Assembly: GCA_021397835.1 (NCBI GenBank)
Contig: JAJFZO010000742.1
Coordinates: 319,001-383,000, forward strand
Direction: 5' to 3'
DNA from: Moringa oleifera
Lineage: Eukaryota; Streptophyta; Magnoliopsida; Brassicales; Moringaceae
DNA: 64,000 nt
Below the pieces are notes generated by a model. It worked only from the letters and a program-made list of their open reading frames with translations, had not been told where the DNA came from and made no database searches. The position numbers and the translations under genes are program-made. Positions 22,699-61,282 of the stretch are shown here, one piece after another. Within the stretch, counting starts at the first letter, position 1. Every line of letters begins with the position of its first letter.

Positions 22699-23067
22699 CT
22701 ACACTATTTGATAATAGTAATAATTTTGAAATGTGTAGCAGTACAAACTCATAGGTCCATTGATGCCATCATTGATTTGGTTCTTGTCTCCATTGGTGTT
22801 GTGCTGTGTGTCAGTATTACCATTGTTATTGAAAGCTGGCCCTTTATGTTTGTTATTTCTTCCATGGTTCCTATGATACCTGGGCACACGCTGCTTCCTT
22901 CGAGACAAAGGAAAGGTAGCCTGGTGCACCGGGCGCCGGTAGAAGATCCCTCGAGTAGATTCAATGCTCCGATCAGCTACCTGCAGATGCCCTGGATGAA
23001 CTCCTGCTTCAGCTTCCTGATCAAACCATCCTTCAGTTTCCTCATCGTATTCTTCTTCAGTTTCCAT
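22699..23067 (-). CDS. Gly/Asn-repeat-tail protein, intact copy A (122 aa)
   Basis: The family is not recognised. I chose the ATG at 23067 because the leader before it (…GGGTTTGATA) is shared with the starts of other copies. Residues 1-25 are very acidic (METEEEYDEETEGWFDQEAE). Residues 40-70 are basic, with SRRKQR and PRYHRNHGR. Residues 71-112 are the family tail, with NNKHKGPAFNNNG, then NTDTQHN, then NGDKNQIND, then GINGPMSL. The end is tyrosine-rich (QNYYYYQIV). The tail splits into two stretches of 21 residues with regular Gly/Asn turns and alternating hydrophobics, which would suit a beta-solenoid or amyloid-type fold (inference). The gene has its own TATA promoter and no frame break. 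The role is unknown. Confidence 0.65.
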   Translation of the reverse strand: METEEEYDEETEGWFDQEAEAGVHPGHLQVADRSIESTRGIFYRRPVHQATFPLSRRKQRVPRYHRNHGRNNKHKGPAFNNNGNTDTQHNTNGDKNQINDGINGPMSLYCYTFQNYYYYQIV

Positions 23068-23119
23068 TATTATCAAACCCTTGTTTCAGTCCTTCATAAA
23101 TTCAAAGGAACTTGTCTAG

Positions 23120-23190
23120 CCTATTATAAAGAAGCAGTTCGAGGACTACAAAGCTTCAGCTTAATGGCAACGCTACCATCTGAACAAGAA
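23120..23190 (-). promoter_or_regulatory. Family promoter of copy A
   Basis: On the minus strand TTTATAAT lies at about 23122-23130, some 57 bases before the ATG. Upstream come a variant of the shared TTCTTGAAACTGC element (here altered) and GGTAGCGTTGCCATTAAGC, the conserved box seen before most copies. Confidence 0.55.
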
Positions 23191-23249
23191 AGAATATATT
23201 TCTTGGTCATGATTCCATCACACAACTTTCGGCTTCCTCTAAATAATTA

Positions 23250-24035
23250 GAGAATAGAATCCACACCAAACTGATAATTCGATAAGAATAATCTATTTTT
23301 GACCATAACAAAGAGTTTGACCAATTATTCGACCAAATTGATAATTCAGTAAGCACAATCCATACCCATTATTTTTTACCATAAAAAAATACAATTTTCT
23401 ACCTGCAAAATAGTATCAGTCATGGATGGAACAGTCCTTTTCTAATTAAAAGAAATGATAACCTCCCTGTTTATTCCATATGCTCTTATCCAATCATCAA
23501 AAAAGCAAGAGTAGGCCCCTTGAATTTCTCTTTTTCTCACTACCAAGAGTTAGAGATACTGGAAAAGTTTGCATCTCAAAGGGATTTGGATAAGGTTATT
23601 TTAACTGTGGCAATGTAGCCACTTCCCTTTACTATTGGAACTTTCTTCACTAACATTTTCTGAGGAGACAGCATGGGTGATGCTCAACTCTTTTGCCTCT
23701 TTGCTATGGATCTGATGCCATTTTCAAAAACAACTGTAAGCATCTCTCTGTGGGTAACATAAAACATACTGTAAGCATTTCATCAGACATATATATGTCA
23801 CTATGATTCCAATCAAACTATTTTAGGTGGCCAACAAATATGGTCGGTCCTTATATTGTTTTAGCGTCTTTATTGGTGTTTGGCGGTTAGCTAGGGATGT
23901 TTCGAGATCCGTTGTTATTATTTTAAAAAAATAAAAATAATACAAAAATAAGAAAAATAAATAAATTCAACAATTAATTAAATTTGTATTAATCATTAAA
24001 TTTTATCATTATTTTACCGTTAATAATTGGTTAAG
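23250..24035. other. Intergenic region
   Basis: I see no supported gene. It runs from the promoter side of copy A into the AT-rich tandem duplication. Confidence 0.4.
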
Positions 24036-25380
24036 TAAAACATTTAATTTTATGTATTTTAATAATTGATTGACACTATCGTTTCAATGCTGTTATTTTG
24101 AATTTTTTAATGTAATTTTTTGTAATATAAATTCAAAAAATATAAATTTTTAGTTCTCAATATTTTGTGATAATAATTTAAATTTTTTTAATACATGTAA
24201 AAAAAATTCAAATCAAAATTCATCATATAAAATTTTTAATTTAAATATTTTTAATTATAATTTTTTAATAAATTAATTTAATTTAAATTAAATTAATAAA
24301 TTAAAATTTGATTGATAATTTTTTAACGTCAAAATTTATTTAATAATATAAAATAAATATTAGTTTTTTATAATTATTATTTTATAAAAAATATATATTA
24401 TTTTATAATTTTTAAAAATAATGACAATAAAATCTAACTAAAAAAGTGAGATCTCACTAGAAGATATTATACCTAATTGTGGCCCCACCAATGATACAGG
24501 AATTTTTATCATCTTTCTTGTTGATCATTTCTTTATTATATATTTTTATAGAATCAAAGTCAGTGATAACATGTGCAACACATTTTTATAGAATCAAAGT
24601 GTGTGGTAACATGTGCAACACCAAAGGATTGATCATTTTACTTTATTTTATTTTATTCTTACTTTTACTAATTTAAATTTATATAATGTATATAATATTA
24701 TTTTAAATTTATATTTTCATTTTAAAGATGTTTTCGGTATTATAAAAGAAACTTTCACATTTATATTTCATTATAATATAAAATTTTACTAAATTAGTTT
24801 ATAAATATAATATCATATAATCAATTTTTATAAAAATCAAAGTTATATGTTTAAGAAACAAATTTATATTATATTAATTATAGTGTTTCTTCTTATAATT
24901 GAAATCATTTCATATTTTTAAAATAAAAATATATAAAATAGTAATTAATAAAATTTAAAATAAAATGAATTCACAAAAGATAAAAAATTTTAAGAAATTA
25001 ATGAAAACGCTAAAAAATCAGAAATAATACCAACAAATGTTTACTTTTAATAAATAAAAGAAAAATATATAAAAGCACCATTTTTTATATTTAATTTCAT
25101 ATACTAGTCTGAAATTTTTAATTTTTTTCTTTTTACATTCTTTTATATTTTTAAAACATATTTTAAAATGAAAAATATAAAAATAAACAAATTATCTATA
25201 AATTAATTATCAGTAATTTAATTTAATAGTGATCATTAAAAAAAATAGATATTAATTTAGACGGTCGAGATTTTGATATTTGTTTCAAATCATCCAACGG
25301 CTTCTTTTGAATATGATTTAATTTTGATCATTAAAGAAAACAGTGAAGAAATGATACTCATTTTCAATAAGAAAATATAA
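24036..25380. repeat. AT-rich tandem duplication, unit 1
   Basis: This unit of about 1.34 kb is followed directly by a diverged copy (25381-26735). Landmarks recur in order: ATTTTAATAATTGATTGA, TGTGGCCCCACCAAT, ATAGAATCAAAGT, CATGTGCAACAC and GATACTCATTTTCAAT. Offsets are about 1,337 to 1,349 bases. Inside it, a repeat of about 39 bases (TAGAATCAAAG… CATGTGCAACAC) occurs twice near 24550-24622. I see no coding potential. Confidence 0.8.
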
Positions 25381-26735
25381 AATTTAATTTTATATATTTT
25401 AATAATTGATTGATTCTGTCATTAAATTTTACTTTTTTTGAAAATTTTTTTGCATAATAAAATTTTTAAACATTTTTCACAATATAAATTTAAAAATACA
25501 TATTTTTAATAATTTTTGTAATGATACATTAAATATTTTTTGAAATTTTTGAAAAAATTAAAAAAATTGTTGTATAAAATTTTTAATTTAAATATTTTAG
25601 TTATTAATCTTTTTGATAAAATTTAATTTTATTAAAATTAATAAATTAAAATTTGATTGACAATTTTTTAATTTTAATAATATGAAGTTAACATTGAAAT
25701 TTTTTATAATTTTTTTTTATAAAAAATATATGTTGCCTTATAATTTTTGAAAATAATTAAAATAAACTCTAACTATAAAAAATGAGATCTTACTGAAAGA
25801 TAATATACCTAATTGTGGCCCCACCAATTATATAAGAATTTATCATCTTTGTTGGTGATCATTACTTTATTATATATTTTCATAGAATCAAAGTCTGTGA
25901 TCACATGTGCAACACGATCTCATAGAATCAAAGTCTGTGATACCATGTGCAACACGGAAGGATTGATCATTTTATTTTATTTTTATTTTTTCTCAATTAA
26001 AATTTGTAATGTTCATAATATTATTTTAAATTTATATTTTCATTTTAAAGATGTTTTTAGTATTATCAAATAAAATTATCTTATTTATATTTTATTATAA
26101 ATATAAAACTTTACTAAATTAGTTTATAAATATAATACCATATAATTAATTTTTATAAAAAATAAAGTTATATGTTTAAGAAAAAATTTATATTATATTA
26201 ATTATAGTGTTTTTTCTGATAATTGAAATCATTTCATATTTTTTAAATCAAAATATATAATATAGTAATTAATAAAATTTAAAATAAAATGAATTCACAA
26301 AAAGTACAAAAAAATTTTAAGAAATTAATGAAAATACTAAAAAAATATAAATAATATCAACAAATGCTTGCTTTTAATAAATAAAAGAAAAATATATAAA
26401 AAGCACCATTTTTTATATTTAATTTCATGAACTGGTCTAAAAATTTTTAAATTTGTATTTAAATTATTTTTTCTCTTTTTTTATTCTTTTATATTTTTAA
26501 AACATATTTTAAAATGACAAATATAAAGATAAACAAATTATCTATTAAATTAATTATCAATTATTTAATTTGATAGTGATTATAAAAAAAAAAAGATAGT
26601 TAGACATTCGGTCCAGATTTTGATATTTGTTTTATATCATCCAACAGCTTCTTTTGAACATGATTTAATTTTAATTCCATTAAAGAAAACATCGAAGATA
26701 TGATACTCATTTTCAATTAAAAAATATATAAATAT
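25381..26735. repeat. AT-rich tandem duplication, unit 2
   Basis: This is the second copy of the preceding unit. It has the same internal 39-base doublet near 25883-25955, so the doublet predates the larger duplication. Divergence is moderate, with many substitutions and small indels. Confidence 0.8.
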
Positions 26736-27485
26736 TTTCATATTAATTTATCAACTTAAATTCAACAATATTTAGGTTGAGAATAAAATGAATGAATAAA
26801 CTGCATGAGCAAAATATCTCATACAAAGATATCCCATAACCTTAAAAAAAAAAAAAAAGACAAAAAAGAAACTACAAAAATCAATGCTACAATATCGGAA
26901 AACAGATGTAAAGAAAACATAAGAAAAATGAAAAAAAATTCTAAAATAATGTAATAAAAATTATTACTAATAGTGAAAAATAAAAAGAATAAAAATAAAG
27001 AAGAACACATGCACTAACTAAGTTGTATACCTGACAACATGAAAACTGAACCTTTTTCCCCCAACATTTGTGAGTGGAAATTTCCATTCACAATTAGGAA
27101 ATAATTTTTTTTGAAAAGTTACATTTCTTATGAGATGGGAATATATTAGTAGGAATTGCAGCTGCAGAATTTGTAGGAGTTGCAGCCCACAGATTTTACC
27201 AAATTGGTTGAAGAAAATAAAGGTCATTAGTTGCGGCCTAAAACCAAACGTGTGTGACTCAACTGTTCACTTTTAGATAGAGATATTAATCAAATCTCAT
27301 ATATCTTTTCAGAAAAATAGGATCTTATAACTATGTATACAGCTGCTACTCTTATTTTTTCAGCTGTATTATACTACAAGACTAATTTTTACACATGAAG
27401 AGAGACAAATTTACAGAAGACCTTAATGTAAAGGATTTTTTTTTTTACTTATAAAGCCTTGAAATTTAAAGGCTACTGGAAAAGA
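26736..27485. other. Intergenic region
   Basis: It is AT-rich with an A tract at about 26843-26858. The minus-strand frames here consist of Phe/Leu/Ser runs from T-rich DNA and are not supported as genes. Confidence 0.4.
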
Positions 27486-27665
27486 TTATCTATTAAACCT
27501 CAACAAGGTCGTATACACTTGGATGAACCACAGATTCATAGGTCTAGATGCCGCTATTGATGTGTTCTCAGCTCCATTGCCATCGTTCTGGGTCTCAGAA
27601 ATGTTTTCAGTAGTATTAAGTAAACCCTCTATGTGGCTGATATATACTTCTTCAGACCCATCCAT
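27486..27665 (-). pseudogene. Diverged family tail, copy B (59 aa frame)
   Basis: The open frame from the ATG at 27665 begins MDGSEEVYISHIEG and contains ENISETQNDGNGAENTS, then IAASRPMNLWF. It aligns loosely with the family tail (T-D-x-Q-H-N, N-G-x-x-N-Q, G-I-N-G-P-M-N-L), partly in a shifted frame. Its flanks are duplicated at 34.88-35.3 kb next to intact copy 35903-36484. It may be a short surviving protein or a relic; I favour relic. Confidence 0.45.
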
Positions 27666-28817
27666 GGACACCTAGCTGTGTGCCTGGCCATGCTACTAAT
27701 AGATATTCTGCTGGATTGCAAGGTTCATCACAAATTATGATTTTCCTGCGGATCTCTCCGATAAATTTTTACCTAAATAATGACATTGGAGGACTGAGAA
27801 TCTGAAGAATAGACAGTGCAGGATATGTTTTCTGCTACAGCATGTCATTTTTTAGCTATGCCTCAAGACAAGATAAGATATAATATAGCATGGTATAAAG
27901 GATAATATATTCTTACAAAATCTACGGTTTGTATAATTCTATCTCGAGGCAGCACCACTTTTTAATGATATTTGTCTCCCAACCACAGTATAAAACATTA
28001 ATTTTATTCATAAAATAGTTAGATAAATCAAATTTTCCATGCAATATCCTCTTCACATAAGATCAATTGTCACTGTTAGATGCTTGCCTACAGTACATAT
28101 TGCTAATATTGCACAACCTAACTTCTCATTTGCATGTGTTGTACTATCTACTAATAATTCAATGTTTCATATTGCCTTTATTTTCTGCTTGCTTGGATGA
28201 ATCCGTGACACGAGGTTTTGTTCTTGAATGATAATGCAAGAAAAGTGTATGTCCTATAGAATCAATGGAGAAATAATTTTCGAAAAGAGTAAATATGAAC
28301 TTTAGAAGAATTATCGAATGTTATCCTATGTACCCAAGAGAGACTAGGCTATTTGAACTCTCCTTCTCTCATTAATTAACACAAGTTAGAGATACAGGCA
28401 AAGTTAACATTTGAAATTTTATGGGGGAAGCTCTTTCTGGTTTGTTCTTCTTATTTTACTCCAGTTGAACCATATTCTTAATTATTCAGCATCTTGTAAA
28501 GTGAATATGAAAATTTCTGAACACATTCTGATTATAGTTCTTTAGTCCATCTTGTGACCAAAATGTTGCTATCATGGTGATGATTTTTCATAGTTTTCAC
28601 AGCAGCACCATCCTTGACAGATAAAGATTGTCTCTATTTTTGAGATCCGTTTATTATAATGTTCCTCATCAAAAATGGGGATTTGTTTTAGAATTATGAC
28701 AGGAGAAAAAAGGATTTACAATTAAAATGCTGAACATGCACAAAGGATTTTATTTCTAAACCTTCAAATGTTAAGGAGTACAAAATAGATGATCAACTTG
28801 CTGAAAATTAAAACCTC

Positions 28818-29288
28818 CTACCATCTTGTAAACTTGTAGTTATTTTGAACGAGGAAGGTCAGATGCGCAGGTCCTTTGATGCCATCAATGAGTTTGTTCC
28901 TCTGTCAATAGAGGTTGTGCTGAGCGTCGGTCTTACCGCTGTTACTGAAAGCAAGCCCTCCGTGGTTAGTGTTCCTGTTAATTGTCTGAAGCTGGACTTC
29001 TTTAATTTTCTGTACGAGCCATCTTTCAATTTCCATATGGATCAATATTTCCCTTACCAACCATCTTTCAACTTCCCTATGAAGCCATCTTTCAATTTCC
29101 CAATCTAACCATCTTTCGATTTCTCAATCTAACAATGTTTCGATTTCCCTAGTGAACCATACTTGTCCACCGAACAAAGCAATTTTCACTAGGTGGATTT
29201 CACTTCTGATTTGGTTGCGCCAGATCTCGATCTGCCTTCTTTCCATCTCTCTAGTTGATTGTTTCACCGGAAGCAGTGGGTGGCCCTT
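28818..29288 (-). pseudogene. Family copy C, dead relative of copy 35903-36484
   Basis: There are 157 codons in one frame from the TAG at 28818-28820 to the position of the start codon at 29288. The start reads AAG where the related copy has ATG, and two codons are TGA (28905-28907 inside the tail, 29124-29126 where TGG is expected). No frameshift exists. The middle has octapeptide repeats of the type E-I-E-R-W-L-x-x. The tail has NTNHGGLAFSNSGKTDAQHN, then after the stop KLIDGIKGPAHL. Downstream and upstream flanks match those of copy 35903-36484. Confidence 0.75.
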
Positions 29289-29339
29289 ATCAAACCCAGG
29301 ATTTAGTGGCCTCTTTTGCATATGTAAATCCGAGAGAAC

Positions 29340-29420
29340 TTATCTGCCTCTTATAGAGAACAGTTTCAAGAACAATAGGAGCTTCTGCCTAATTACAACG
29401 CTACAGTTCAAAAATTAAAG
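29340..29420 (-). promoter_or_regulatory. Decayed family promoter of copy C
   Basis: The minus strand retains TTGTTCTTGAAACTG next to TTCTCTATAAGAGG (a damaged TATA at about 29347-29357) and the GTAATTAGGCAGAAGC box. Confidence 0.5.
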
Positions 29421-29494
29421 AAAGAATATCCTTCTTTCTCAATATTCAATCATACATATATTTTTATTCTCTGAGTATTGCTATTGCTACTGTT

Positions 29495-29635
29495 TTTATC
29501 CTCTGAGATTATCAACCAACTAGTAGGCTTCAGTTGTCACGTTGTTGCACAAGATTTCCGTGTCTGCCTTAATTGTTCCATCTTTCTGGTTCAGTCGTTC
29601 ACCAGGTTGTTTTACCGGAGACTGTAGCTGGCCAT
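29495..29635 (-). pseudogene. N-terminal family fragment D
   Basis: From the ATG at 29635 the frame reads MASYSLR and then TAA (29612-29614), then NNLVND and a second stop, then TRKMEQLRQTRKS. This matches the start of copy 35903-36484 (MASHSLRAGNLVDDETRDMERL). No tail follows; the rest is lost. Confidence 0.65.
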
Positions 29636-29746
29636 TATCAAACCCTTGATTCAATGGTTCAATTCAATGGCCTCTCTCTGTTAATAATCCAATGAACTTC
29701 GAAATTTTGTTGTTGTTGCGGCCACCACTAAGCTCAAAACCAAGTT

Positions 29747-29842
29747 TTATTTAGATCCATCGTTCATTGGGAGTATGGAAAGGCCATGCACCAGCTGCCT
29801 GGTTGACTCGATCAATCTCTCATCAGTTTCATCATCAAACCA
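29747..29842 (-). pseudogene. N-terminal family fragment E
   Basis: In a longer open frame, residues WFDDETDERLIESTRQLVHG resemble WFDQEAEAG… and SIESTRGIF of copy A. There is no tail module. It is probably a relic of an acidic-type copy. Confidence 0.4.
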
Positions 29843-29959
29843 GATGCAGTCAAGAGGACTAATAGATATTCTGCTTATTTGCAACGCCAACAATGGATTA
29901 AGGAAAATTATTATGTCTCTGTTAGTGATGATTCCACTAATTAAATACATTTTGTCTGA

Positions 29960-31326: not shown

Positions 31327-31733
31327 TTAAAGAGCTTGGCATTTCAAAAGATAATAGTTATGATGTTCAACTTTGCACTTAAGATTCACAGGTCCATTGA
31401 TGCCATCAAAGATTTGGTTCCTATCTCCTCTGACGTTGTATTGGGCGTCAGTATCACCACTGCTATTGAAAACACTGTCTCCATGTATGTTGTTGATGTT
31501 CTGCTGAGCCCTATTAGAAACAAAGCCTCCATATTTGCTATTGCTTCCATTTATCCTCTGACTCCTCACATCCCACCGTTGTAGTATAGCCTTTCATGGA
31601 GTAATTGTTCATACCTGATTACAGTCTCTTTCCTTAACAGATCTCCTCTCTCTTTCCATCAGTTGTTGTACCGTTTTATTTCGTCCTCTGAACGTTTAAT
31701 CCTTCGCAGTAGGTACTCCGCGTTGCTTTGCAT
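31327..31733 (-). pseudogene. Family copy F, frame broken
   Basis: The ATG at 31733 opens MQSNAEYLLRRIKRSEDEIK and stops at TGA 31659-31661. The frame resumes as WKERGDLLRKETVIRYEQ, stops again, and shifts by one before SQRINGSNSKYGG. The tail holds two units, one shortened (SNRAQQNI) and one full (NNIHGDSVFNSSGDTDAQYN), followed by RGDRNQIFDGINGPVNL and a tyrosine-containing end. The N-terminus matches fragment L at 38125 and echoes the EYLR repeats of copy 59768-60211. Promoter elements are well preserved, so transcription may persist. Confidence 0.7.
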
Positions 31734-33020: not shown

Positions 33021-33025
33021 AATAC

Positions 33026-33460
33026 TCAACGTGATAGATTCTTTATGACATGATAATAGTTATAATTTTGAACGGTGTGGTTCAGATACATAGATCCGTT
33101 GATGCCATCAATGATTTGGTTCTTCATTCCATTGACGTTGTGCTGGGAGTCAGTATATCCACTGCTACTGAAAACGGTGCTTCCATGTTTCTTATTGCTT
33201 CCATCACACCTATGACTCTTCGCCTCTCCCTGATGTTTTGGAGCCTGGTTGGTGCTCCCATCAGCTGCCCCTTTCTTACGTTCGACTACGAGTTGAAGTA
33301 TGACTTCATACCTTTCCTTCATTTGGATGAGTTCAGCCTCATGCTTTGATTTGTGCTGTCTTATTATTCCATCGTACCTTCTGATCTTCCAGCATAAGCT
33401 TTCCTCTTCACTTAGCCCAGGGGGTGGGATCAAGTTGAAGCTGCTCATTGTGGAACTCAT
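33026..33460 (-). CDS. Gly/Asn-repeat-tail protein, intact copy G (144 aa)
   Basis: The family is not recognised. The start is the ATG at 33460, reached just after a leader in which the usual GTTTGATA is altered. Residues 1-20 are MSSTMSSFNLIPPPGLSEEE. Residues 22-65 are charged and likely helical or coiled-coil (CWKIRRYDGIIRQHKSKHEA, then ELIQMKERYEVILQLVVERK). Residues 66-88 form a polar linker. The tail's first 21-residue unit runs from 89 to 109 (NKKHGSTVFSSSG, then YTDSQHNV) and the second from 110 to 130 (NGMKNQIIDGINGSMYL, then NHTV), followed by QNYNYYHVIKNLSR. The frame is intact and has the canonical TATA promoter. The function is unknown; an oligomerising tail is my inference. Confidence 0.68.
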   Translation of the reverse strand: MSSTMSSFNLIPPPGLSEEESLCWKIRRYDGIIRQHKSKHEAELIQMKERYEVILQLVVERKKGAADGSTNQAPKHQGEAKSHRCDGSNKKHGSTVFSSSGYTDSQHNVNGMKNQIIDGINGSMYLNHTVQNYNYYHVIKNLSR

Positions 33461-33520
33461 CTTGTTTTAGTGGTTCAATTCACCGGTCTGTCTGTAAATC
33501 CAAGAGAGCTTGTCTGCCCT

Positions 33521-33585
33521 TTATATAGAGGCAGTTTCAAGAACTACAGGGATTCTGCTTAATTGCAACGCTACCATTTGGAGAA
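33521..33585 (-). promoter_or_regulatory. Family promoter of copy G
   Basis: The minus strand reads GGTAGCGTTGCAATTAAGC, then GTAGTTCTTGAAACTGCC, then CTCTATATAAAGGGC (TATA at 33521-33530), about 61-70 bases before the ATG. This is the clearest version of the shared promoter. Confidence 0.7.
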
Positions 33586-33659
33586 GAAAGCATATCTCTC
33601 TTCCCAATGATTCCATTCTACACTTTTTCTTCACCATAAATGATTAAAGAATAGAATCC

Positions 33660-35902: not shown

Positions 35903-36484
35903 TCAGTACTTCAGCACGAATTTTTGATTATTGTAAACGTGGTAGGTAAAACGCGCAGGTCCATTGATGCCGTCGATGAGTTGGTTCCTCCGTCCCGCGA
36001 GGTTGTGCTGGGCGTCAGTAACACCACTGCTATTGAAAGCAGGCCCTCCATAGTTGTTATTGTTTCGAACAATCCCACGACTCCTCGGCCCCCCGCCCCG
36101 CCATTGTACTTGAGCCCTTTCAGTGTTTGGGTTAGCGACCTGAAGAAGCTGCTGTTCATTAATTTTCTGGAGGAGAAATGTTTTAAGTCTCATCTGGACC
36201 GATATTAGAAATTCTGTTTGGAGCGATATTACAAATTCCTCTAGTAAGGATGTTGCAATTTGCCAATCTAACCATATTGAAATTTCCATTTCTACCCAAC
36301 TTTGAACTTCCCTATCTAACCAGCTTCCAACTTCACTGTTGAGCCATCCTTTTCTGCCGTAGAGCTCGGTTTTCAATTCGCGGACTACAGTTGCTACTGT
36401 GTTGCGCAAGATTTCCACCAGCCTTTCCATGTCTCTAGTTTCGTCGTCCACTAGGTTGCCTGCCCGGAGGCTGTGGCTGGCCAT
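35903..36484 (-). CDS. Gly/Asn-repeat-tail protein, intact copy I with octapeptide repeats (193 aa)
   Basis: This is the longest intact copy. The start is the ATG at 36484 (MASHSLRAGNLVDDETRDME), after the shared GTTTGATA leader. Residues 51-114 form eight consecutive octapeptides: EVGSWLDR, EVQSWVEM, EISIWLDW, QIATSLLE, EFVISLQT, EFLISVQM, RLKTFLLQ and KINEQQLL. They are amphipathic, with hydrophobics at positions 2, 5 and 6, so probably a long helix able to pack or lie on membrane or partner. Residues 120-141 are a Gly/Arg linker. Tail unit 1 spans 142-162 (NNNYGGPAFNSSG, then VTDAQHNL) and unit 2 spans 163-183 (AGRRNQLIDGINGPARF, then TYHV). The end is YNNQKFVLKY. It is the living relative of dead copy 28818-29288. 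The function is unknown. Confidence 0.68.
   Translation of the reverse strand: MASHSLRAGNLVDDETRDMERLVEILRNTVATVVRELKTELYGRKGWLNSEVGSWLDREVQSWVEMEISIWLDWQIATSLLEEFVISLQTEFLISVQMRLKTFLLQKINEQQLLQVANPNTERAQVQWRGGGPRSRGIVRNNNNYGGPAFNSSGVTDAQHNLAGRRNQLIDGINGPARFTYHVYNNQKFVLKY
36143..36334 (-). repeat. Coding 24-base tandem repeat (8 octapeptides)
   Basis: There are eight units of eight codons within copy I. Dead copy C has the same period (E-I-E-R-W-L-D-W and similar), better conserved between units, so the array is older than the duplication and has since diverged in copy I. Confidence 0.75.
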
Positions 36485-36560
36485 TATCAAACCCTTTGAT
36501 TCAGTGGTTCAATTCAGTGACCTGTCTTGCTTATGTAAATCCAAGAGAACTTGTATGGCC

Positions 36561-36620
36561 CTTATATAGAGGCAGTTTTAAGAACTATAGAGCTTCTGCT
36601 TAATCGCAACGCTACCCATT
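36561..36620 (-). promoter_or_regulatory. Family promoter of copy I
   Basis: The minus strand reads TAGCGTTGCGATTAAGCAGA, then ATAGTTCTTAAAACTGCC, then TCTATATAAGGGCC (TATA at 36561-36570), about 80 bases before the ATG. The GAA of the shared TTCTTGAA element is AAA here. The element also faces truncated copy J on the other strand. Confidence 0.65.
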
Positions 36621-36730
36621 AGAAAAGAAAGAATATATTTCTCTGTGATGATTCCATTATAGATTTTTTTTACTCTCTACGATATCTAACAAATCTAATA
36701 AAATATAAACTTGATTCAGTTGGCTATAGA

Positions 36731-37016
36731 ATGGAAAAGACAGAAACAAGGCACCAAGTGAGGATCTAGTGGTAGGATTGATGGAAGCAACAACAAACGT
36801 GTAGGCACCGTTTTTGGTAGCAATGGTGACATTGACACCCAGCACAACATCTACGGAGAGAAGAACCAAATCATTGAAGGCATCAACAGATCTATGCATC
36901 TGAAAAACACAAATATAAATTATAACTATAATTATCAGATAATATGGCAACCTGGTCGAGTCATAATTTACAATCTACCTGTTCTAATCCTTAACATTTC
37001 AAGGCTTCAGAGATAA
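36731..37016 (+). pseudogene. Family copy J, 5' truncated, plus strand
   Basis: The upstream part (GAAACAAGGCACCAAGTGAGG) matches the linker of copy 59768-60211 but contains an insertion that shifts frame and adds stops. From 36774 one frame is open to TAA at 37014-37016: RIDGSNNKRVGTVFGSNG, then DIDTQHNI, then YGEKNQIIEGINRSMHL, then a long Asn/Tyr-rich end running into what is untranslated sequence in other copies. The promoter and N-terminus are missing. It lies head-to-head with copy I, about 250 bases apart. Confidence 0.7.
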
Positions 37017-37439: not shown

Positions 37440-37730
37440 GTAAACGTGCATGGTGGAATCATCACTAAGACTGATAATAATTTCTTAATCCATGGATAGC
37501 TTTGCCATTAAGCAGAATATCTATTAGTTGTTTGGTGAATTTCAAAATATGATATATGTAGGCTAGCAGGGTTATTTTCCATTTTTAATAATTTACATTT
37601 TGTTTCCTGTTTTGATTTGGAAGGATTTAGTATGCTGAAGGAAGGGTTGTTGGGAGTTACCGAGATTTTTCTGTGACTAGAGCTGAGCTTTCCAGAAGTA
37701 GCAAAACAAGTTACCATGAAGATATGAAAG
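37440..37730 (+). repeat. Duplicated segment, partner of 58690-59110
   Basis: Shared landmarks in order: GGAATCATCA, ATATCTATTAGTT, AGGGTT, TTAATTTACATTTTGTTT or close variants, CTGTTTTGATTTG, AAGGATTTAGT, CTGAGG/CTGAAGG and AAGTTACCATGAA. It includes a decayed version of the family promoter box (GCCATTAAGCAGAATATCTA). Confidence 0.7.
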
Positions 37731-37777
37731 CCAGAGAGCTCTATGAGTTGAATGATTGAAACTAGGGTTTGATAAAA

Positions 37778-37906
37778 GTGAAGAATATATATGATGAGGA
37801 AAATGAAAAATGGTTGGACGAGGAACCTGAAGAAGAAGGGAATGATAACAATAAGTTCACCAAGCAGCAGATGTGCTCCAGGGAACCTCGGATTTGTAGT
37901 CTTTAA
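37778..37906 (+). pseudogene. N-terminal family fragment K (acidic type)
   Basis: A 42-codon frame follows GGGTTTGATAAAA, where the family leader and ATG should be; the ATG is absent. It reads YDEENEKWLDEEPEEEGN, close to YDEETEGWFDQEAEAG of copy A. It ends at TAA 37904-37906 with no tail. Confidence 0.55.
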
Positions 37907-38035
37907 AACTGAAGGCTTTGAATATGAAAACATTTACATATATGTAAATTTGTTCATATTCCAGTATGAATAAGAGACCTTTAAAAATCCAATTTCTCTT
38001 TCATAACTGATTTCAGTCTCTTTCCCCGACAGATC

Positions 38036-38125: not shown

Positions 38126-38299
38126 TGTCAAACCCTTGTTTCAAAGGTTCAACTCAGTGGCCTCTCTCGTACATGTAAATTTAAGTGAACTTGTCTGCTC
38201 ATACAGAAGCAGTTTCAAGAGACCTTCCAGCTTATAATTGCAACGCTACCCATTAGAAAAGAAAAAATATCTTTCTTTACGATGATTTCATTATACATT

Positions 38300-52368: not shown

Positions 52369-54213
52369 ATAAATATAAAAAATATTTATAAATTTTTAAA
52401 TAATACTAATAACAATTGATGGGATAAAATCAAGTATAAATCATAACAATATGTTAATTAGGATAAAAATAAGGATTTACATCTTATCTCTTAATAGTCT
52501 CCCATTTGAAGACTTAATTATCCTTTAACAATTTTTTTAAAAAAATATTCAAAGTTGCTGCCTCAACATTACTATTGATTAGGTAAAGCCTAAGAAAAGT
52601 TTAACTTTGAATAACCTCTTCTTTTCCAAGAGACTTCTTCAGTAATCTATTATGTTCTCATCGATGTTAATCTTCTATAAAGAAATACAATTATGTTCTA
52701 TGCTCTTGAAACAAACTTTGTAATTAATAGTGTATCTATTAAACAACAACAACAATTATAGAGTATATAGCAGCAGTAAGAATTACCTTAATCTCCTACA
52801 TAATCAACAGCTAACAAATTTAGAAAGCACAAATCTTGACTACTGTAACATAATGTGGCCCTTGAAGTACCCTTTAAAAAATAAATCACTTCACAGTTAC
52901 TCAATAATTTTTACCCAATTAACCATAACCTTACTAACAACTTCTAATCCACATATAATGTCATATTTGTGCACATCTTGGCAATATAAGATTTGATATT
53001 ATAAGAGTTATAGTACTTAAAACACCTATATCTTCTTCACATCTTTGCCAAGGAATTGTTTTAAAATCCTGTTAACTAATAAGAAATAGGGTACTCATAG
53101 GTAGGTATCTTGCATAGTAAAACAGTGCAAGATTCTTTCAATATAATCCTAAGTAATCTAGTCTTTTCTGTTCCTCCTATCTTTAAGTACATTATTCCAA
53201 GAATATCACATGTAACTCTAACTTTCAATTAAAATTTCTAGCCAACACCAATAAAAATAGTACCTGGAACTAATAACACATGTGCAGATAGAAAAATTAT
53301 AAAACAATGACCACTACAAATAGGCGCCATGGTTACCAGATTAGCAAAAATCCTCAACTTATAATGTAAGAATCAAATCGCTTGTATGAACATCTTAGTA
53401 CTAGTTTCATCAAACAACAATCTGTTCAATTGTCACATTAGGTTAATTCTTCTCACTTTCAACAATAAAACTCTAGCTTGAGCCATATAAACATTCCTAG
53501 CAAATACATCAATTAAAACATGATAGTTATGTACTGATTCTATAAAAGCACTAATATTCATTCAACTATCTTTAGTTATCTGCTTCAACTAGAAAACTTC
53601 CCATCTCGTTGAGCTTGTGTAGATATAAGAAAATGTTTTCTTTTTTGTTTTTCTTTACTTTTGTTGAATTCTTTTCATAGTATTAATTTCTTCATCTTCA
53701 AATACATCTCTTTCTTTTGTTATATTTAATATGAAACTTACCAGATGATTATAGGTTACCTTGATTCACATTTCTTGTTTCACATTATTTCAATCGTTTT
53801 GTAATTCTAACGCTTACCATTATTTCTCCCATTTGATTAGGATCTGATTTGATATACATAACCATCAACTTTCTCACCAAATCACGTATTATCATAACAT
53901 TTCCATTAAGCCATTATTTGTTTTTTTATAGCTTTATTAAAAAAGTAATATATAGCCATAACAAATTCAAAAGTTAGAACAAATTTTTTACCAATTTCAT
54001 AATTAAAATCACACGATTTTGGTATAGTACAAAGCAAAAAAGTAGCTCTTTTTTTTTTCATCAAGTTTTACAACTGCTAATTTGTTGATTAGGGTGTTCA
54101 ACTCATTCAAGTGTTCTTGCAAAGATGATCTTCTCTCCATCTTAATTGTAAAGTTTCTTTCTCGGAGAAATCTTACTTGATAAAAGATTTTCTTTCGATC
54201 ACTTAGGTTCTAT
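52369..54213. other. Intergenic region
   Basis: I see no supported gene. The plus-strand open frame at 52730-52996 has no motif. Confidence 0.4.
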
Positions 54214-54419
54214 CACTACAACAATGTAGGCTTTTCTTAACAGTCAAAATAGGCCTTTCTTGACTACTGCAAAACTAACCTTTAAATAAGTGACATTAAA
54301 AATCTAAAAACTGTAATCTAATAAAACATTTCTTTATGGTTGCAAATCATTTAGATGACAGCTCCAAAATCGTCATCTAATGTATTTTAAATTTTAATTA
54401 GAAAAATAGAAAGTTAGAG

Positions 54420-54720
54420 ATTTAAGATGTAATGTTGGTCATGTAAAATCAACATTAAATCCATTAGGAACTTTTAACATCTGTAAAAATGGATCGATGT
54501 TAAATCAATTAGTAACATTTAACATTAATCCTATTTAATCAAGGTTAAAAGTAACAAAATAATTTAACATCGGTCAGAAGGGATTGATGTTAAATTTTTT
54601 AGGTAAGAAGCAATATTAATTTTATACAAAAAATCAAAATAATAATATTTATTTATTGAAATTACTTATAAATCTTTAACATTGATCATAAATCTATGAT
54701 CGACATTAAATAATACATGC
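54420..54720. repeat. Subterminal or nested-element repeat words
   Basis: Short words around TAACATCGGTC and GATCGATGTTAAA recur in both orientations. This may be the end of a third non-autonomous element nested in the CACTA element. Confidence 0.35.
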
Positions 54721-54949
54721 ACTTTTTGAAATGTAATTTATTAAATTAAATATTTATTTTTAAATTTATTTTATGTCCATAAATTGTAATTCATATCTCT
54801 CACTATTAATTACAAGAAATTACTTTACAATTGATAATGTTAATATATAAAATCTTATCAAATATGAACTACTTTAACTAAATCATGCATTAAGATTGAT
54901 CACATTCAACATATATATATATATATAATAAAACACTTTAATATGAATA

Positions 54950-55330
54950 ATCAACATTTTCACCAATTCTATAACATTATACCAGAACAATGATAAACCA
55001 AAGGCACACTCCAGTATATATTAATAACAAATCACATTTTCATCATTATACCAAAACAATGATATACCAAAATCATTCTCTAATATACATCAATATCTTC
55101 ATCACTTCATCATTTAACCATAACAATGGTATACTGAAATCATATTGCAATAGACATCAACACCTTCATACCTTCTTCATCATTTAACCATAACAATAAT
55201 ACAAAAAACTACACTCTAATATACATCAATACATCTTCATCAAACTTAACATTATAATACCACTTCAATGCAAAAAAAAACATCTTATCTTTAGTATACA
55301 TTCAAACATCATACCCTCCTAACAATGCAC
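54950..55330. repeat. Diverged tandem repeats, about 75-base period
   Basis: The phrases CCATAACAATG…, ATATACATCAATA and CTTCATCA recur about five times in order with drift. The repeats are inside the CACTA element and noncoding. Confidence 0.6.
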
Positions 55331-55659
55331 TAAAATATTGTCATACAAAACCAAAAATCTTTGCCCTTAGTGGAATGGCGATCATCATATCTACATCCAT
55401 AGCACAACACACACAATGATAATGAAACCTAATCGATTTTCAAATGGACTCTACATCCTATTTATGTACAGTAGGTGTTGGTTGCAATTTAGATAACGTC
55501 TATAAAAGATCAAATATATCATCTTAATAATTCATTCTTAAACTCGATGAAAATAATACATATTCTGATATTATATTACCCATAATCCAAGAGCAACAAG
55601 CAATTTTGTGGCTAAGCAACATGTGTTCTAATAACTTGAGATACAATAACGATATCTGT

Positions 55660-55800
55660 GTCAATAATTGATCGAGGCAAAGGAGCATTGAGCTTTGCAG
55701 CTATGGTGATCTAGACTCTAGCATCATCCTCGACCATGTCATGCCCATGAATTGCCTTGTTCATGGCAGGATCAATGAAAACAGATATAGCTCTTATTGT
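55660..55800 (-). pseudogene. Unrecognised gene fragment inside the CACTA element
   Basis: The minus strand reads NKAIHGHDMVEDDARV, a stop, then ITIAAKLNAPLPRSIIDTDI. It is less AT-biased than its surroundings and looks like decayed coding sequence. I do not recognise it; it may be transposon-encoded or captured. Confidence 0.3.
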
Positions 55801-58689
55801 TAGATTTGTTAAGTTTTTAATGTAGTTCAGGGTTGGTCACTCATTCTCACTACAAACTGAATTTTGTAATAGTAAGTTTTTTACTTGAAATGTCTAATAT
55901 GAGTTCCTTTTCCATGTGCTTGCATAGGAAGAAGAAAAGTTCATTGACCTTCCTTATGTTGTCAAAAGGACAAATGTTTCTATGTTGACGCCACTACTGT
56001 TGAAAAGCTAAAAAATAAGGAGTGCACCCTTACAGATAATTGTGCTACTCCCTTCAGATAAATTGTTTTGTTATTACTATCAATTTGCTCCATTAATTGC
56101 CCACTGAGGAATTAATTGCAGAATTTATTACTCAGTAAAGATCTTGATACTTATGATTTGACAATGAGTTTGTTGTCTTAGTAATTAGTAGGATTTAGAT
56201 AATGCAATGTGTTAAATAAAAGGAGTTCCACATACTTAGTTAGGAGTCTTTTATCTTTTATTTCTCAAAGGATTAGTTTCAAGTTTTTACTAACTTGTAG
56301 TGATTATATCCAAATTTAGCTTTTAAGTTATAGTTTTAAATCATACTAAGTGTGCACAGAGTCTCTTATCTTTTATTTCTTTATCAATCACCAGAATGCC
56401 CTTGTTCAATTTTATATTAAACACATACATTTTTTTGGAATTTGTTTTATTTTCTAAAATTAGTGCTCATTTGATTTAACTTTTTTCTTTTTCTTCCTTT
56501 TGGTGGAAATTAATGCAAATTCTTTTTTTTTTTTTTGTGAGGTGAGACCTTATTTGGTTGGATGGATATGTATGTATGTGTTTGGATTTTATACTTTAGT
56601 TTGTGATAGTGAGTGATGCTTATACATCTTGTGCAGCTATTAGGACTACTAAAGAGCATGAAGGGCATAATATCAATCTTTATTACTTTTCAGTGTGTAT
56701 TGGAACTATATGGAGGGGAAATATAGATAATTAAGAAAAGTGATTCAAGAGCTTTCTCAATTTACAGCACATTTTGTCAATAGAGTGATCAAGATGAAGC
56801 CTACCATTTCGTAAATTTTTCCTTTGGGTAAGGAAATGCCTCTACAGGTACAGTCACATTTACACATCTATGCATATATAGATATATAATACATAAATAT
56901 GTTAATGTAATTGTGATATATTTCTATATTGAAACCTTAATATATTTAAGATACATAAGGTTAAAGTTATCATGGATGCTATAAATTATCAGTTACTAAT
57001 TCATACTCATGAATGATAAAGAGCAGAATGGATCAAAATTCTTGGGAGCTTTTGCCAACCTTAAAAGCAGAGTCGACCAAGTTTATGATGTTGTGAGTTT
57101 ATTGGACTGCTTTCCTAACATTGCTAGCATTAATTGGAATAATATGGCATTAATTATATTTGCATATTGCAAGGGAAGTTTTTCTACATGTGCCTTTAGA
57201 TGGTTACATGTCACATATGATTATATGCCATATACCAATTAATACTTGTTTTCTCAACTTACTTCTTTTCTACCATGATACTGTTGGCCAAAAGGAAAAA
57301 AAGAGAATCATTTAGATTCAAGTAATAATCTCTTTAGTTCATTGAAAGCAACATGAGGGACTGAACTTTATTATTTTTTATTTATAAACCAACAAAATTA
57401 ATTTTGCACTAAAATTTGGATAATCAAAATGAAAAAATTTGGATGCTTAGTATTGTTTAAAACAAATAGAATCCATCTCTTTGATCATTTTACTAAAGTT
57501 GAAAATTTAATGCTTAATTGATCTTATCTGCCTTTGGTGGCAGTTTATGATATCGTTTACCCTTTATAATTTGATTATAGGATAGGACAACCTAAAAGAG
57601 TTACTGCTCAGTGGTTGAACGGATGGAATATTACATAGCATGAAAATGCCTGTAACTAAAGAATCAAGCATTCCAATTGTCAAGATTTATGTTTAAACTG
57701 AAAAATTATCATGCTGGAATATGATTGGAGTTTAATGATGTTTTAGATTATAATTTTACATATGAAATTTGACAGTTGCTGTAACTTTATATGAGGGATG
57801 ATACTTATTGTGTAGTGCAATTTTTACTTTATATTGTAATTTGTAATTAAAGAAAAAAATTATTTAAAAAATATATTTGTTTAGATATAATTAACGTATG
57901 CCAATTTACACTATCAATTTAATTTATGGATATATGTAAATATTTAAAAATAAATAAAACTATTAAAGTAATTATAATTTTGAAAAGAAAATAAATATTA
58001 ACTTTACTTGGATTCCAAAGATTGATATCAATTCTTTTCTAATTTTTTTTTTATAAATAATTTAAATATATATGTTAATCTTCAACATAGATTTTTTTAA
58101 TTTATATTTATTAGTTTTTGAATTCAAAAATAAAATAATTAAAAAAGAATTGACCTTCGTTTGATAAAGGTGAATACATAAGTTTTTTAATGAAATTAAA
58201 TGGTACCACTTTAGATGACGATCATTTACGATTGTCATCTAATGTATTTAAGACTATCACCTATTTGCTAGTGCATTATAGGATAGTTTTTACGATGGTC
58301 ATCTAATGTATAAATGACCGTCATTCTAAGGTGCTTTAGTTGACGATTTTTTAATTACAACAATCATCTATTATAGGATTTTTAATGTCGCTCAATTAGA
58401 TGACACTTTAACAATCGTCAAGAAAAATCTTTTTTGACCACCAAGAAAAGCTTGTTTTGTTGTAGTGTGATCTAAGATTCTTGATCAGATTAGTATTTAA
58501 GTCTCTTTCACTATAAGATCATCAATCACATTCATGCCTTGAAACCCAATGTGAGATTATCATCAATTACTACCAATCTTTAGGTCTACATGCATATAAT
58601 TTTTGAATTTTGATGTAAGATCAAAATCACATCTAAATCTTCATCATTGGCTCACTGGCTGTTGCTTTTAGATTCTCGTCCTTCAATTT

Positions 58690-59110
58690 TATTGAATAGG
58701 TAAAAGTGCATAATGGAATCATCATCATTAAGAGGGATAACAATTTTTTGACCCCTTGGTGGCATTGCCATGCATTATGCATAATATCTATTAGTTCTAT
58801 GATAAACCCAGAATATAATTCATGTATAATAGGGTTGTTTTTCTGTCTTTTTAATTTACATTTTGTTTTCTGTTTTGATTTGAAAGGATTTAGTCTGCTG
58901 AGGTGGGATTATTGGGAATGAAGGAAATTTTTTTTTTTTTTTGGTATCCAAGAGCTGAGATTCTGTGGAGAGGCTGCCAGAAACTCGTGATTATGCTGCT
59001 ATTCACTGAATTTCTTTGTTCTGAATGCAATTATAGCTAAAAGAATATTTATTCTTCTTTTAGCTGCATCCATGCAAGTAGCCAAATAAGTTACCATGAA
59101 AATACGAAAT
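58690..59110 (+). repeat. Duplicated segment, partner of 37440-37730
   Basis: It is collinear with the segment at 37440-37730, with an extra insertion of about 110 bases near 58930-59060. It precedes family copy 59768-60211, as its partner precedes fragment K. Confidence 0.7.
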
Positions 59111-59645
59111 TAAGCAAGAGAACATATGCAGCATGGGATTCGCATTTGCAAAATTCTTCCTTAGCCGTTTTATCATTCTTTGATAATTTTTGTTTTTCAA
59201 ATAGAAAATCTGGGAAGATGCAGTTGATTAGTGTATGCAGCATCTCAAATGCTGGGATTCTCATTAAGTTTTTAACCCTAGGAGGAGCATATATGTCTTT
59301 AGGTAAAAAAACTCAATTTGCTTAAAGGCTCCTTAACGTCACAAGCTGACGACAAACCTAAAGCCAGCATAAAACATGCATGGAATTAACAGTAAAACAA
59401 AGGCAAATCAGAACTCTGCTCAGTGTTAATATTAGCCATTACGTATATTAACATCTTTTTGTCAGTTATTTAAGTGCTCCGCCTAAAAAAATGTTTTAAT
59501 AGTCAAAATAATTTTTATTTATGATCAAAAAATAGATAAATAAGTTTCACACAGTGAATTTCTATTCTTTTATTATTTATGGTACTTAAAAAGAATGTAG
59601 TATGGAATCACCATAGATATTGTTTCTTTCCCAATTAGTAGCCTT

Positions 59646-59690
59646 GCAATTAAGCAGAATCTCTATAGTTCTTGAAACTGCTTCTATATG
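59646..59690 (+). promoter_or_regulatory. Family promoter of copy M
   Basis: The plus strand reads TTGCAATTAAGCAGAATC, then TATAGTTCTTGAAACTGC, then TTCTATATGATGGGC (TATA-like at 59682-59690), about 80 bases before the ATG. The TATA is weaker than at copy G. Confidence 0.6.
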
Positions 59691-59767
59691 ATGGGCATAC
59701 AAGTTCTCTTAGATTTGCATAAGCAAGACAGATCACTGGATTGAACCTTTGAAACAAGGGTTTGATC

Positions 59768-60211
59768 ATGTCACGTGGTGCGGAATACCTGCGCAGTACG
59801 GAATACCTACGCGGTTTGGAATACCTACGCGGTGTGGAATACCTATGCAGTGCGGAATACCTACGCAGTTTGGAATACCTACGCGGTGCAGAATACCTAC
59901 GCGGTTTGTGCAGGTATGAATATCAGCAGTACGAAAACGAGAGAATACAATGGTCAAGGAAAGAGGCTGAAATCAAGCTGAAATCACTCATCGAAGAGGC
60001 AGAAACAAGGCACGACATGAGGAGTCGTAGGATTGATGGAAGCAACAACAAACATGGAGGCACTGTTTTCAATAATAATGGCGATACTGACGGCCAGCAC
60101 AACGTCAACGGAGAGAGCAACCAACTGATTGATGGCATCAATGGACCTATGTATCTGAACTTAACAGTTGAAAATTATCACAGCTATCGAATAATTCATC
60201 AACCTCTTTGA
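59768..60211 (+). CDS. Gly/Asn-repeat-tail protein, intact copy M with hexapeptide repeats (147 aa)
   Basis: The start is the ATG at 59768, after the shared GTTTGAT leader (an upstream TTG is not needed). After MSRGA come seven hexapeptides, residues 6-47: EYLRST, EYLRGL, EYLRGV, EYLCSA, EYLRSL, EYLRGA and EYLRGL. Residues 50-85 are a charged, likely helical segment (YEYQQYENERIQWSRKEAEI, then KLKSLIEEAETRHD). A linker RSRRIDGS leads to tail unit 1 (93-113, NNKHGGTVFNNNG, then DTDGQHNV) and unit 2 (114-134, NGESNQLIDGINGPMYL, then NLTV), ending ENYHSYRIIHQPL. It is the best match to the family consensus. The N-terminus echoes AEYLLRR of copy F. The function is unknown. Confidence 0.7.
   Translation: MSRGAEYLRSTEYLRGLEYLRGVEYLCSAEYLRSLEYLRGAEYLRGLCRYEYQQYENERIQWSRKEAEIKLKSLIEEAETRHDMRSRRIDGSNNKHGGTVFNNNGDTDGQHNVNGESNQLIDGINGPMYLNLTVENYHSYRIIHQPL
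59783..59908 (+). repeat. Coding 18-base tandem repeat (7 hexapeptides)
   Basis: There are seven units based on GAATACCTACGCGGT plus one codon. Units are nearly identical at the DNA level, so the expansion is recent compared with the octapeptide array of copy I. Confidence 0.9.
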
Positions 60212-60454
60212 GTTTTAGTGTACAATATTTTCCACCTAGTAAGTCATCTACTTGTGGTACTCCTTAAAATATGAAGGTTTTAGAAATAAAATCCGTTACT
60301 TTGGTATCTCAATTGTAAACTTTTCTTCTCTTCCTGCAATAATAATCCCACAACCAAATAGATTTTATGCCATCTTGGCCAGATTATAGACTATTGCCTT
60401 TATGCCAGAAAGCAACATATATATTTAAATTAGGATACGAAGGGAATGTTATGC

Positions 60455-60708
60455 TAAAAAAGGAAGCAATAACAAATAGCATGAAGGCACTGTTTTTAAT
60501 AGCGCATCAGCAGAACATTAACAACAGACAAGGAGGAAGTGTTTGCAATAGCAGTGGTGATACTGAGCCACAACACAACATCAGCGGAGGTAGGCACCAA
60601 ATTCTTGATAGCATCAATTGACCAATCAATCTGAAGTATAAAGTTGAACAGCTTACAAAAGAGATAGAAAATGACAAAAGTATAAATTCTATTGTTATCA
60701 ATAATTAA
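60455..60708 (+). pseudogene. Family copy N, tail only, broken
   Basis: It reads GSNNK, stop, HEGTVFNS, then a frameshift into AHQQNINNRQGGSVCNSSG, DTEPQHNISGGRHQILDSIN, a stop, and PINLKYKVEQ. It therefore held two 21-residue units before the final one, like copy F. No N-terminus or promoter is recognisable. Confidence 0.65.
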
Positions 60709-60772
60709 GTAATGCATACCCTCTTCTAGGTAATTTATCCATAATTGTAGTAATAGTGATAATACCAATAAT

Positions 60773-61282
60773 TTTGAACTGGTAGTGATAATAGTGATAA
60801 TAGCCATTAATGATTTGGTTCTTCTCTCCCTTGATGTTGTTCTGAGCGTGAGTATCACCACCGCTATTGAAAAAAGCGCATCCATCTGTTTAGTTGATAT
60901 TGTGCTGCAGGTCTAGATCACTTCCGCTGTTCAAAACAATGCCTTCGTGTTTGTTGACGATGTAGTGTTGGACGTGAGTATAACCACTTCTATGGAAAAC
61001 AGTGCCTCATGTTTGTTGTTGATATTGTGGTGGGCGTCTGTATCACCACTGTTATTTAAAACATTGCCTCCATGTTTGTTGTTGGTACTGGAAGTCGGTA
61101 TGGACACTGCTATTCAAAACAGTGCCTTGATCTTCTTGCTTCTGTCAACCCAATGAGTCTTGTGCCACTCTCCATTCTTTTGCCCAAAGGTACCCTACTT
61201 CAAGTTTATGTTTCCTATAGAAGATTTCAGTTTTCAACCGTCGTTGTTTTACCTCATATTGGCAACTGTGTGCCATGACCAT
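60773..61282 (-). pseudogene. Family copy O with five tandem tail units
   Basis: The ATG at 61282 opens a 45-codon basic N-terminus (MVMAHSCQYEVKQRRLKTEI…) ending at TGA 61145-61147, where other copies have RIDGS. Below it lie five tail units: GTVLNSSVHTDFQYQ; GGNVLNNSGDTDAHHNI; GTVFHRSGYTHVQHYI; EGIVLNSGSDLDLQHNI, then N and a stop; and GCAFFNSGGDTHAQNNI followed by KGEKNQIING. Units 2-5 keep an exact 21-codon spacing, apart from a one-base loss between 2 and 3 and a shift between 1 and 2. The final GINGP is replaced by NGYYHYYHYQ. It is tail-to-tail with copy N. It is dead as a protein unless spliced or recoded. Confidence 0.7.
60790..61135 (-). repeat. 63-base tandem repeat array (five units)
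   Basis: This is the DNA basis of the five tail units of copy O. The recurring core is ACAAACATGGAGGCACTGTT with AATAGCAGTGGTGATAC following. Confidence 0.7.

Follow-up and report, generated by a model that had tools for sequence, protein, structure and literature searches.

The window, a 64,000-nucleotide stretch of the Moringa oleifera genome, contains four intact small genes that share a C-terminal tail, together with broken copies of such genes. The intact genes encode 122 aa with an acidic N-terminus (22699..23067, minus strand; tail HMM E 1.1e-25), 144 aa with a charged N-terminus (33026..33460, minus strand; tail profile), 193 aa with an amphipathic N-terminus containing 2.9 copies of a 24-bp repeat (35903..36484, minus strand; tail profile) and 147 aa with EYLRGx repeats, i.e., 7.4 copies of an 18-bp unit (59768..60211, plus strand). 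All four had ATG-to-stop frames, as the preliminary description had claimed for the genes with the common module; its "about seven" broken copies became five loci, which account for nine tail rows of the profile search when one additional weak row (score -0.4) is left out. The broken copy at 28821..29150 (minus strand) had 24-bp tandem repeats in its N-terminal part and stops that split the tail, as judged by profile search and repeat analysis. The tail profile identified a full tail in an 88-codon open frame without ATG at 31330..31593 (minus strand), a tail within an 84-codon open frame without a preceding Met at 36762..37013 (plus strand) and tail positions 1-33 at 60346..60618 (plus strand). 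At 60701..61113 (minus strand), profile and repeat analyses revealed tail pieces in several frames with 62- and 125-bp repeats. A chance origin of the tail was rejected, as full copies in the window scored E 2e-20 to 3e-26 and the 24 genome matches among the best candidates scored were all on one contig.

A conserved leader precedes the genes. The leader at 59578..59770 (plus strand) had 20 matches in the genome including itself, all on the contig referred to as C612; among the 19 others, identity was 76-83% in 18 and 70% in one. In the window, it was 82% identical to the leader at 36482..36672 (minus strand), which stops at the 193-aa gene's start codon, and 76% identical to that at 33461..33628 (minus strand), which precedes the 144-aa gene. 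The leader of the 122-aa gene (23097..23218, minus strand), which matches the 193-aa gene's leader at 81% identity across 124 columns, was absent from the 20 matches. In all six pairs of intact window genes, blastn aligned the leader and then the tail, with no alignment between them, and in some pairs the alignment reached into part of the 3' flank. The point at which the aligned leader ended varied from about 50 bp upstream of the start to codon 1. The N-termini of these genes lack alignability between alignable flanks. The claim that the N-terminal halves are unrelated holds for the four intact window genes; some other array pairs aligned throughout (481 kb vs 519 kb of C612, 95%; 281 kb vs 289 kb and 350 kb vs 518 kb, 71% each). 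A dispersed transposon was rejected at the sensitivity of the genome search with the leader and the 3' flank, as all leader matches were on C612 and the 3' flank had 12 matches, one on C563 and the others on C612. The N-terminus of the 193-aa gene showed a helical moment above that of shuffles (p 0.008), which was significant in one of nine array N-termini tested, and AlphaFold2 predicted a helix at residues 3-85 of the 147-aa gene. A PDB match at E 3e-6 fell on the EYLRG repeats and was set aside as low complexity.

The four window genes had no match in Pfam at E≤1 or in NCBIfam, in agreement with their description as an unrecognised plant family. At E≤10, Pfam returned three weak DUF matches for 10 relatives, all in P0001, and nothing else. 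No Pfam profile of a HeLo, RPW8 or MLKL four-helix bundle matched the window genes (E≤1) or the 10 relatives (E≤10) in this search, which was a profile search only, and Rfam gave no match at gathering thresholds. Window-type relatives elsewhere were not found among 7992 candidates scored. We found no literature naming six identifiers of the database relatives and, in the literature on amyloid signalling and plants, no title or abstract start describing this family.

The window array belongs to the C612 array, which comprised 24 matches among the best candidates scored, at 291-714 kb of a single contig. The family extends beyond what had been described, over C612 at 281-714 kb and 861 kb and over contig C18 at 3.78-3.85 Mb. 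Three architectures were distinguished. Older relatives (C612, 281-284 kb; C18, 3.83-3.85 Mb) have a conserved domain of about 58 aa that a linker connects to a tail of this kind; in this first architecture, for which seven complete genes on C18 and C612 were read, the tail follows a predicted two-helix domain. The second consists of small tail-only genes in the C18 array (16 matches, 11 read); Met stood at the tail start in all 11 frames, and an in-frame stop occurred within 10 codons upstream in seven of them. One C18 frame (L051) is not a small tail; it extends into degenerate repeats and spans 207 codons from stop to stop. In the third architecture, that of the C612 array including the window, fast-changing, charged and partly repetitive N-termini are joined to the tail beneath one common leader. 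HMM and MAFFT placed the tails of all three in one family, and hhalign aligned the older tail with the C18 tail at 95.6% probability over 27 columns. These comparisons demonstrate, at the level of sequence, three architectures and the kinship of their tails inside this genome. Together with the blastn results for the window genes, they bear out the view of the tail as a separable module on different partners.

The ~58-aa domain was present in 23 database proteins, and those named were all from rosids (Prunus, Rhamnella, Ziziphus, Rubus, Theobroma, Diplodiscus, Pterospermum, Ricinus and Jatropha). The domain is amphipathic; none of 500 shuffles reached its value. A Gly/Asn motif tail was recognised by eye in 14 of the 23 proteins, with two pseudo-repeats in some (P0005, P0021), and an evident tail was missing in nine. 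In hhalign, the Prunus and Rubus tails gave 0.3% against the older tails of M. oleifera, with no alignability, and the Rhamnaceae and Jatropha tails gave marginal values of 11.5% and 4.4% against the older and C18 tails, respectively. Because the tails of other genera align marginally or not at all, their kinship across genera rests on position and composition. Identity within Prunus was lower in the tails (0.58, 0.70) than in the domain (0.89) and linker (0.85); within Rhamnaceae, tail identity (0.67) equalled that of the linker (0.68). One Prunus relative carries the database name 'RNA-binding protein FUS-like', as written by the source.

We quantified selection as pN/pS. The effector domain had a value of 0.19 (0.11-0.29) and the linker 0.86 (0.69-1.07). 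The older tails had 0.50 (0.30-0.83) and the C18 tail-only frames 0.38 (0.27-0.53; 11 of the 16 matches included), indicating that the tail stays conserved while the linker drifts. That is, the effector domain, the older tails and the tail-only frames are under purifying selection.

The tail had been described as a series of consecutive 21-residue units. Lag 21 was the best self-similarity lag in seven window-type tails (column permutation z 2.25, p 0.019 before correction over 27 lags); in the older tails it was outside the six best lags, and the 21-residue periodicity of the tail is weak. Single-chain AlphaFold2 models gave no confident beta-solenoid. The window tail had a pLDDT of about 40-47 without strands of at least three residues. 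The model of P0005 (Prunus) was poor overall (mean pLDDT 44), with helices at 3-28 and 33-51; its tail pseudo-repeats showed the same short-strand pattern twice (115-119/122-124 and 150-154/157-159) at a pLDDT of about 45-55, i.e., without a confident fold. Kinship to a solved structure was likewise not supported: the tail profile gave two matches against PDB chains (E 0.11 and 1.5), neither amyloid and none HET-s, which were judged to be chance. The chain set presumably includes HET-s (2RNM) and RHIM entries.

We tentatively propose a rosid gene family built on a short Gly/Asn-rich tail that may serve as a homotypic contact and assembly module. Our best guess from the sequences is a tail-driven self-assembly switch. 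The ~58-residue domain, with its two predicted helices, is taken as the effector. The tails would stack or co-assemble in a beta-arc or solenoid-like manner, a tail clustered by one protein would recruit the helical effector, and the conserved hairpin of the recruited effector would then act, perhaps on membranes; tail-only proteins may serve as seeds or decoys. We infer the assembly, the membrane action, any defence role and the translation of the C18 frames as they stand.

This layout resembles known systems in part, as far as excerpts of the published accounts describe them. Fungal HET-S/NWD2, with HET-s-related amyloid motifs, combines a helical effector, short C-terminal pseudo-repeats and clustered genes (PMC12881547). 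However, the tail here had no sequence match to HET-s among PDB chains, its own-genome matches include no receptor, the family is known from sequence and models, and the plant effector domain, unlike that of HET-S, has about 58 aa, two predicted helices and no Pfam match. Bacterial BELL proteins with BASS motifs likewise place varied motifs at the C-terminus, behind a small helical domain (PMC7889193), whereas no kinship was found when genomes of bacteria and archaea were scanned with the C18 tails: 38 stretches matched a pattern and one passed tblastn. This match, on an Actinomadura contig in GC-rich DNA that overlaps an NRPS-like frame on the opposite strand, was judged to be chance. The RPW8/HR genes of Arabidopsis are likewise clustered plant genes; their products begin with a helical domain and end in a variable set of 21- or 14-residue units, which have been likened to the HET-S repeats (PMC6684095). 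Those repeats are predicted to be alpha-helical, whereas the tail here is Gly/Asn-rich, was not modelled as a helix by AlphaFold2 and has no RPW8 Pfam match. Plant prion-like proteins and vicilin amyloids are further aggregation-prone plant proteins (PMC8350573, PMC10454621); however, vicilin is a storage globulin unlike the tail family, which is unnamed in the titles and abstract starts of these articles.

It is somewhat unlikely that the tail is instead a disordered low-complexity region or a short linear motif, which would bind another protein or RNA or enter condensates with no ordered stacking of beta strands. The low pLDDT of both models, the Gly/Asn content of 34-40% in three tails and the FUS-like name of the Prunus relative agree with disorder, whereas the strictly kept tail positions differ from a neutral linker, mean gap columns in the relatives were 0 and 1 in two tail stretches and 7 in a third as against 15 and 22 in the linkers, and the tail is maintained as a stand-alone frame on C18.

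We consider it unlikely that the window copies are a decaying recent amplification, in which the tail functions in older genes, the C612 array mostly drifts and in-frame tandem repeats scramble the N-termini. The window-array tails showed no significant constraint (20 copies; pN/pS 0.77 (0.43-1.42) in the core and 1.32 at the end, both intervals including 1); an absence of purifying selection on the tail, by which the reading of the preliminary description would be refuted, is compatible with the values of the window copies taken alone but is contradicted by the C18 and older tails. Decay also accords with five broken against four intact loci, with N-terminal repeats whose units measure 18, 24 and 105 bp and with the lack of relatives of the array proteins among the candidates scored. 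However, Gly/Asn/Gln positions are invariant over 12 open copies, the leader is conserved at the identities given above, and where open copies contain longer tandem arrays, of which there are three, the periods are multiples of three.

Beyond the proposed assembly module, plant amyloid-type signalling, in which a rosid two-helix effector is combined with rapidly diversifying self-templating tails and tail-only microproteins and helical tail proteins act as seeds, decoys or receptors, appears improbable. If true, it would extend signalling amyloids to plants, where their existence is called an open question in an excerpt of PMC7889193, and the family offers a concrete, testable plant candidate: its effector-like domain is conserved, its tails diversify and its tail-only frames are under selection. 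Should the tail prove not to be amyloid, this is still an uncharacterised family of rosids in which N-termini are replaced, unusually, beneath a common leader. An NLR-coupled amyloid signalosome as in fungi, in which an N-terminal tail copy of an immune receptor templates the effector tail, is highly improbable: a helical effector with C-terminal pseudo-repeats recalls HET-S and BELL (excerpts of PMC12881547 and PMC7889193), but the sought receptor with the same tail was not found among the own-genome tail matches, all in frames of at most 253 codons, and one regular expression detected no NB-ARC-type P-loop in 262 kb of C612 and four short stretches. The sole match of the NB-ARC regular expression was MHDL in a stop-rich context.

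The tail, a short Gly/Asn-rich C-terminal segment, belongs to a rosid family that is real and previously unrecognised, and in which this module is under selection. A three-round HMM search covering 262 kb of contig C612 and four short stretches listed 46 rows, counting weak ones; two divergent genes, at C612:281859 and C612:283951, were among its results. With one of these older genes as the query, the own genome yielded 10 matches (E ≤ 1), including five full-length genes on contig C18 (3830411–3847534) and a C18 gene with an altered domain (3848948). The older proteins (~130 aa) begin with a highly conserved N-terminal domain, the presumed effector domain, which a variable linker joins to a tail with the motif GPxFDNxGNIGSQNNTTGNxNTVDxRISGG; this tail can be aligned with the window tails. 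In two C18 stretches (L040, ~3.849 Mb; L039, ~3.830 Mb), a 347-codon frame resembling a beta-1,3-glucanase adjoins effector-type genes; a copia-type retroelement frame, named by sequence look alone, also lies there.

A profile built from seven of the older proteins detected 19 proteins at E ≤ 0.01 among 7988 scored, and the domain of one Prunus protein matched 15 of 16 candidates, the query itself counted. Pooled, both searches yielded 23 distinct effector-domain proteins; the source plants of the 20 named ones we take to be rosids. By eye, 14 carry a Gly/Asn motif tail (P0001, P0004, P0005, P0006, P0007, P0011, P0012, P0013, P0015, P0017, P0018, P0020, P0021 and P0022), and the motif is repeated within a single chain in Prunus, Ziziphus and Rubus proteins. 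The nine without it come from Malvales (four), Ricinus (one), Rhamnaceae (two, which look shortened or frame-shifted) and unnamed sources (two). Using hhalign, the older tail scored 95.6% against the C18 tail, 11.5% against the Rhamnaceae/Jatropha set and 0.3% against Prunus/Rubus; the C18 tail scored 4.4% against Rhamnaceae/Jatropha. The tails thus differ between genera, and one conserved domain bears tails alike in position and character whose cross-genus homology is not provable. Two Rhamnella rubrinervis proteins (P0001 and P0020) contain two or three partial effector-domain copies per chain.

The older tail alone, as the query, revealed more tails at C18:3779582–3824902 and C612:860885. 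A C18 tail gave 22 matches, of which 16, at E < 1e-3, lie within C18:3779576–3826904; one of these is interrupted by two internal stops. Met was the first tail residue in all 11 of the 16 frames that were read, and seven had an in-frame stop at most ten codons upstream of it; upstream exons may exist. Stop-to-stop lengths were mostly 74–131 codons, one frame (L051) having 207 and continuing in degenerate repeats; most C-termini run to the end of the stretch read, so that any stop would lie beyond it.

Nei–Gojobori pN/pS (column bootstrap; pairs non-independent, ratios uncorrected for multiple hits) in the seven older genes was 0.19 (0.11–0.29) for the effector domain, 0.86 (0.69–1.07) for the linker and 0.50 (0.30–0.83) for the tail; 11 C18 tails gave 0.38 (0.27–0.53). 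The window-array tail core gave 0.77 (0.43–1.42) across 20 copies, including broken ones, and 0.75 (0.36–1.64) in the four intact genes, and the Tyr-rich end gave 1.32 (0.89–2.28) and 1.99 (0.93–8.59), respectively. Purifying selection on the tail was thus borne out in the older and C18 genes but not in the window core, whose interval spans 1; constraint acts on the module as such, and for the window copies it is not demonstrable.

The preliminary description divided the tail into 21-residue units and regarded it as a self-assembly module. The units were its weakest part: lag 21 ranked top among 27 self-similarity lags, at an uncorrected p of 0.019 (seven tails, whole alignment columns permuted), and the z of 4.6 in the initial test came from shuffling each sequence separately, which ignores relatedness. 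In the AlphaFold2 model of P0005 (Prunus avium), the conserved domain formed two helices and both tail pseudo-repeats had matching strands at pLDDT about 45–55. The 147-aa window protein formed a single helix (3–85), its tail lacking strands of at least three residues; both models are single chains, in which an assembly formed on stacking need not appear. The HET-s fold is described as a beta-solenoid in a passage of PMC12881547. Text portions of PMC7889193 and PMC9815663 pose the extension of amyloid signalling to plants as an open question and describe it as apparently confined to fungi and bacteria, respectively; PMC12261475, on a proteome-scale detector for such motifs, has 'plant' once, within a reference. 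The 21- and 14-residue repeats of RPW8/HR are likened to HET-S in PMC6684095, although they are predicted to be helical. We tentatively favour a self-assembly switch as the best single mechanism; close behind it, with slightly less confidence, comes a disordered binding or condensate segment.

In the window (G000:C612:319001-383000; genome, 279.5 Mb), the four intact small genes ending in the module were confirmed; broken copies exist too, as five loci with nine tail rows (HMM) instead of about seven. Matches to the 147-aa protein (24, own-genome search) lie at 291–714 kb on C612 alone. For window-type proteins, i.e., those of C612 array genes under one common leader, no match was found at E ≤ 0.1 among 7992 candidates scored. 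Taken alone, the window array may for the most part be decaying, a reading held with rather low confidence.

Using blastn among 14 gene regions, a leader of ~100–190 bp, ending near the start codon, aligned at ~68–82% both among C612 genes and against older ones, and the tail with its 3' flank aligned at ~65–84%. Most coding stretches between leader and tail gave no alignment, and the N-terminal halves, already described as unrelated or strongly rearranged, were unalignable in 6 of 6 intact window pairs. The leader had 20 genome matches, all on C612. Tandem repeats in the N-terminal coding stretches have units of 18 bp (59773–59905), 24 bp (36266–36334, and 29059–29149 in a broken copy) and 105 bp (~C612:410170–410630). 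Unalignable N-termini between alignable flanks, together with these repeats, thus make in-frame repeat turnover or replacement a likelier explanation than point divergence. One leader match (78%; 38128–38272, minus strand) has no recognised tail below it, and the adjacent 141-aa frame (37508–37933, minus strand) resembles what the leader region of another copy gives when read in antisense.

Convergent pairs of a single-tail copy (+) and a double-tail copy (−) occur five times on C612 (480–482, 518–520, 593–594, 649–651 and 713–715 kb; own-genome search, HMM), so duplication of two-gene blocks contributed to the growth of the array as well. A 129-aa open frame without a Pfam match (18808–19197, minus strand) is identical, as far as compared, to a frame on the opposite strand at C612:294670–295254, which suggests an inverted duplicate that also takes in the gene at 22.7 kb and that gene's broken copy at C612:291 kb. 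On another contig, a 91-bp segment (G000:C563:1818337–1818427) is 80% identical to part of the 3' flank belonging to the gene at 59.8 kb.
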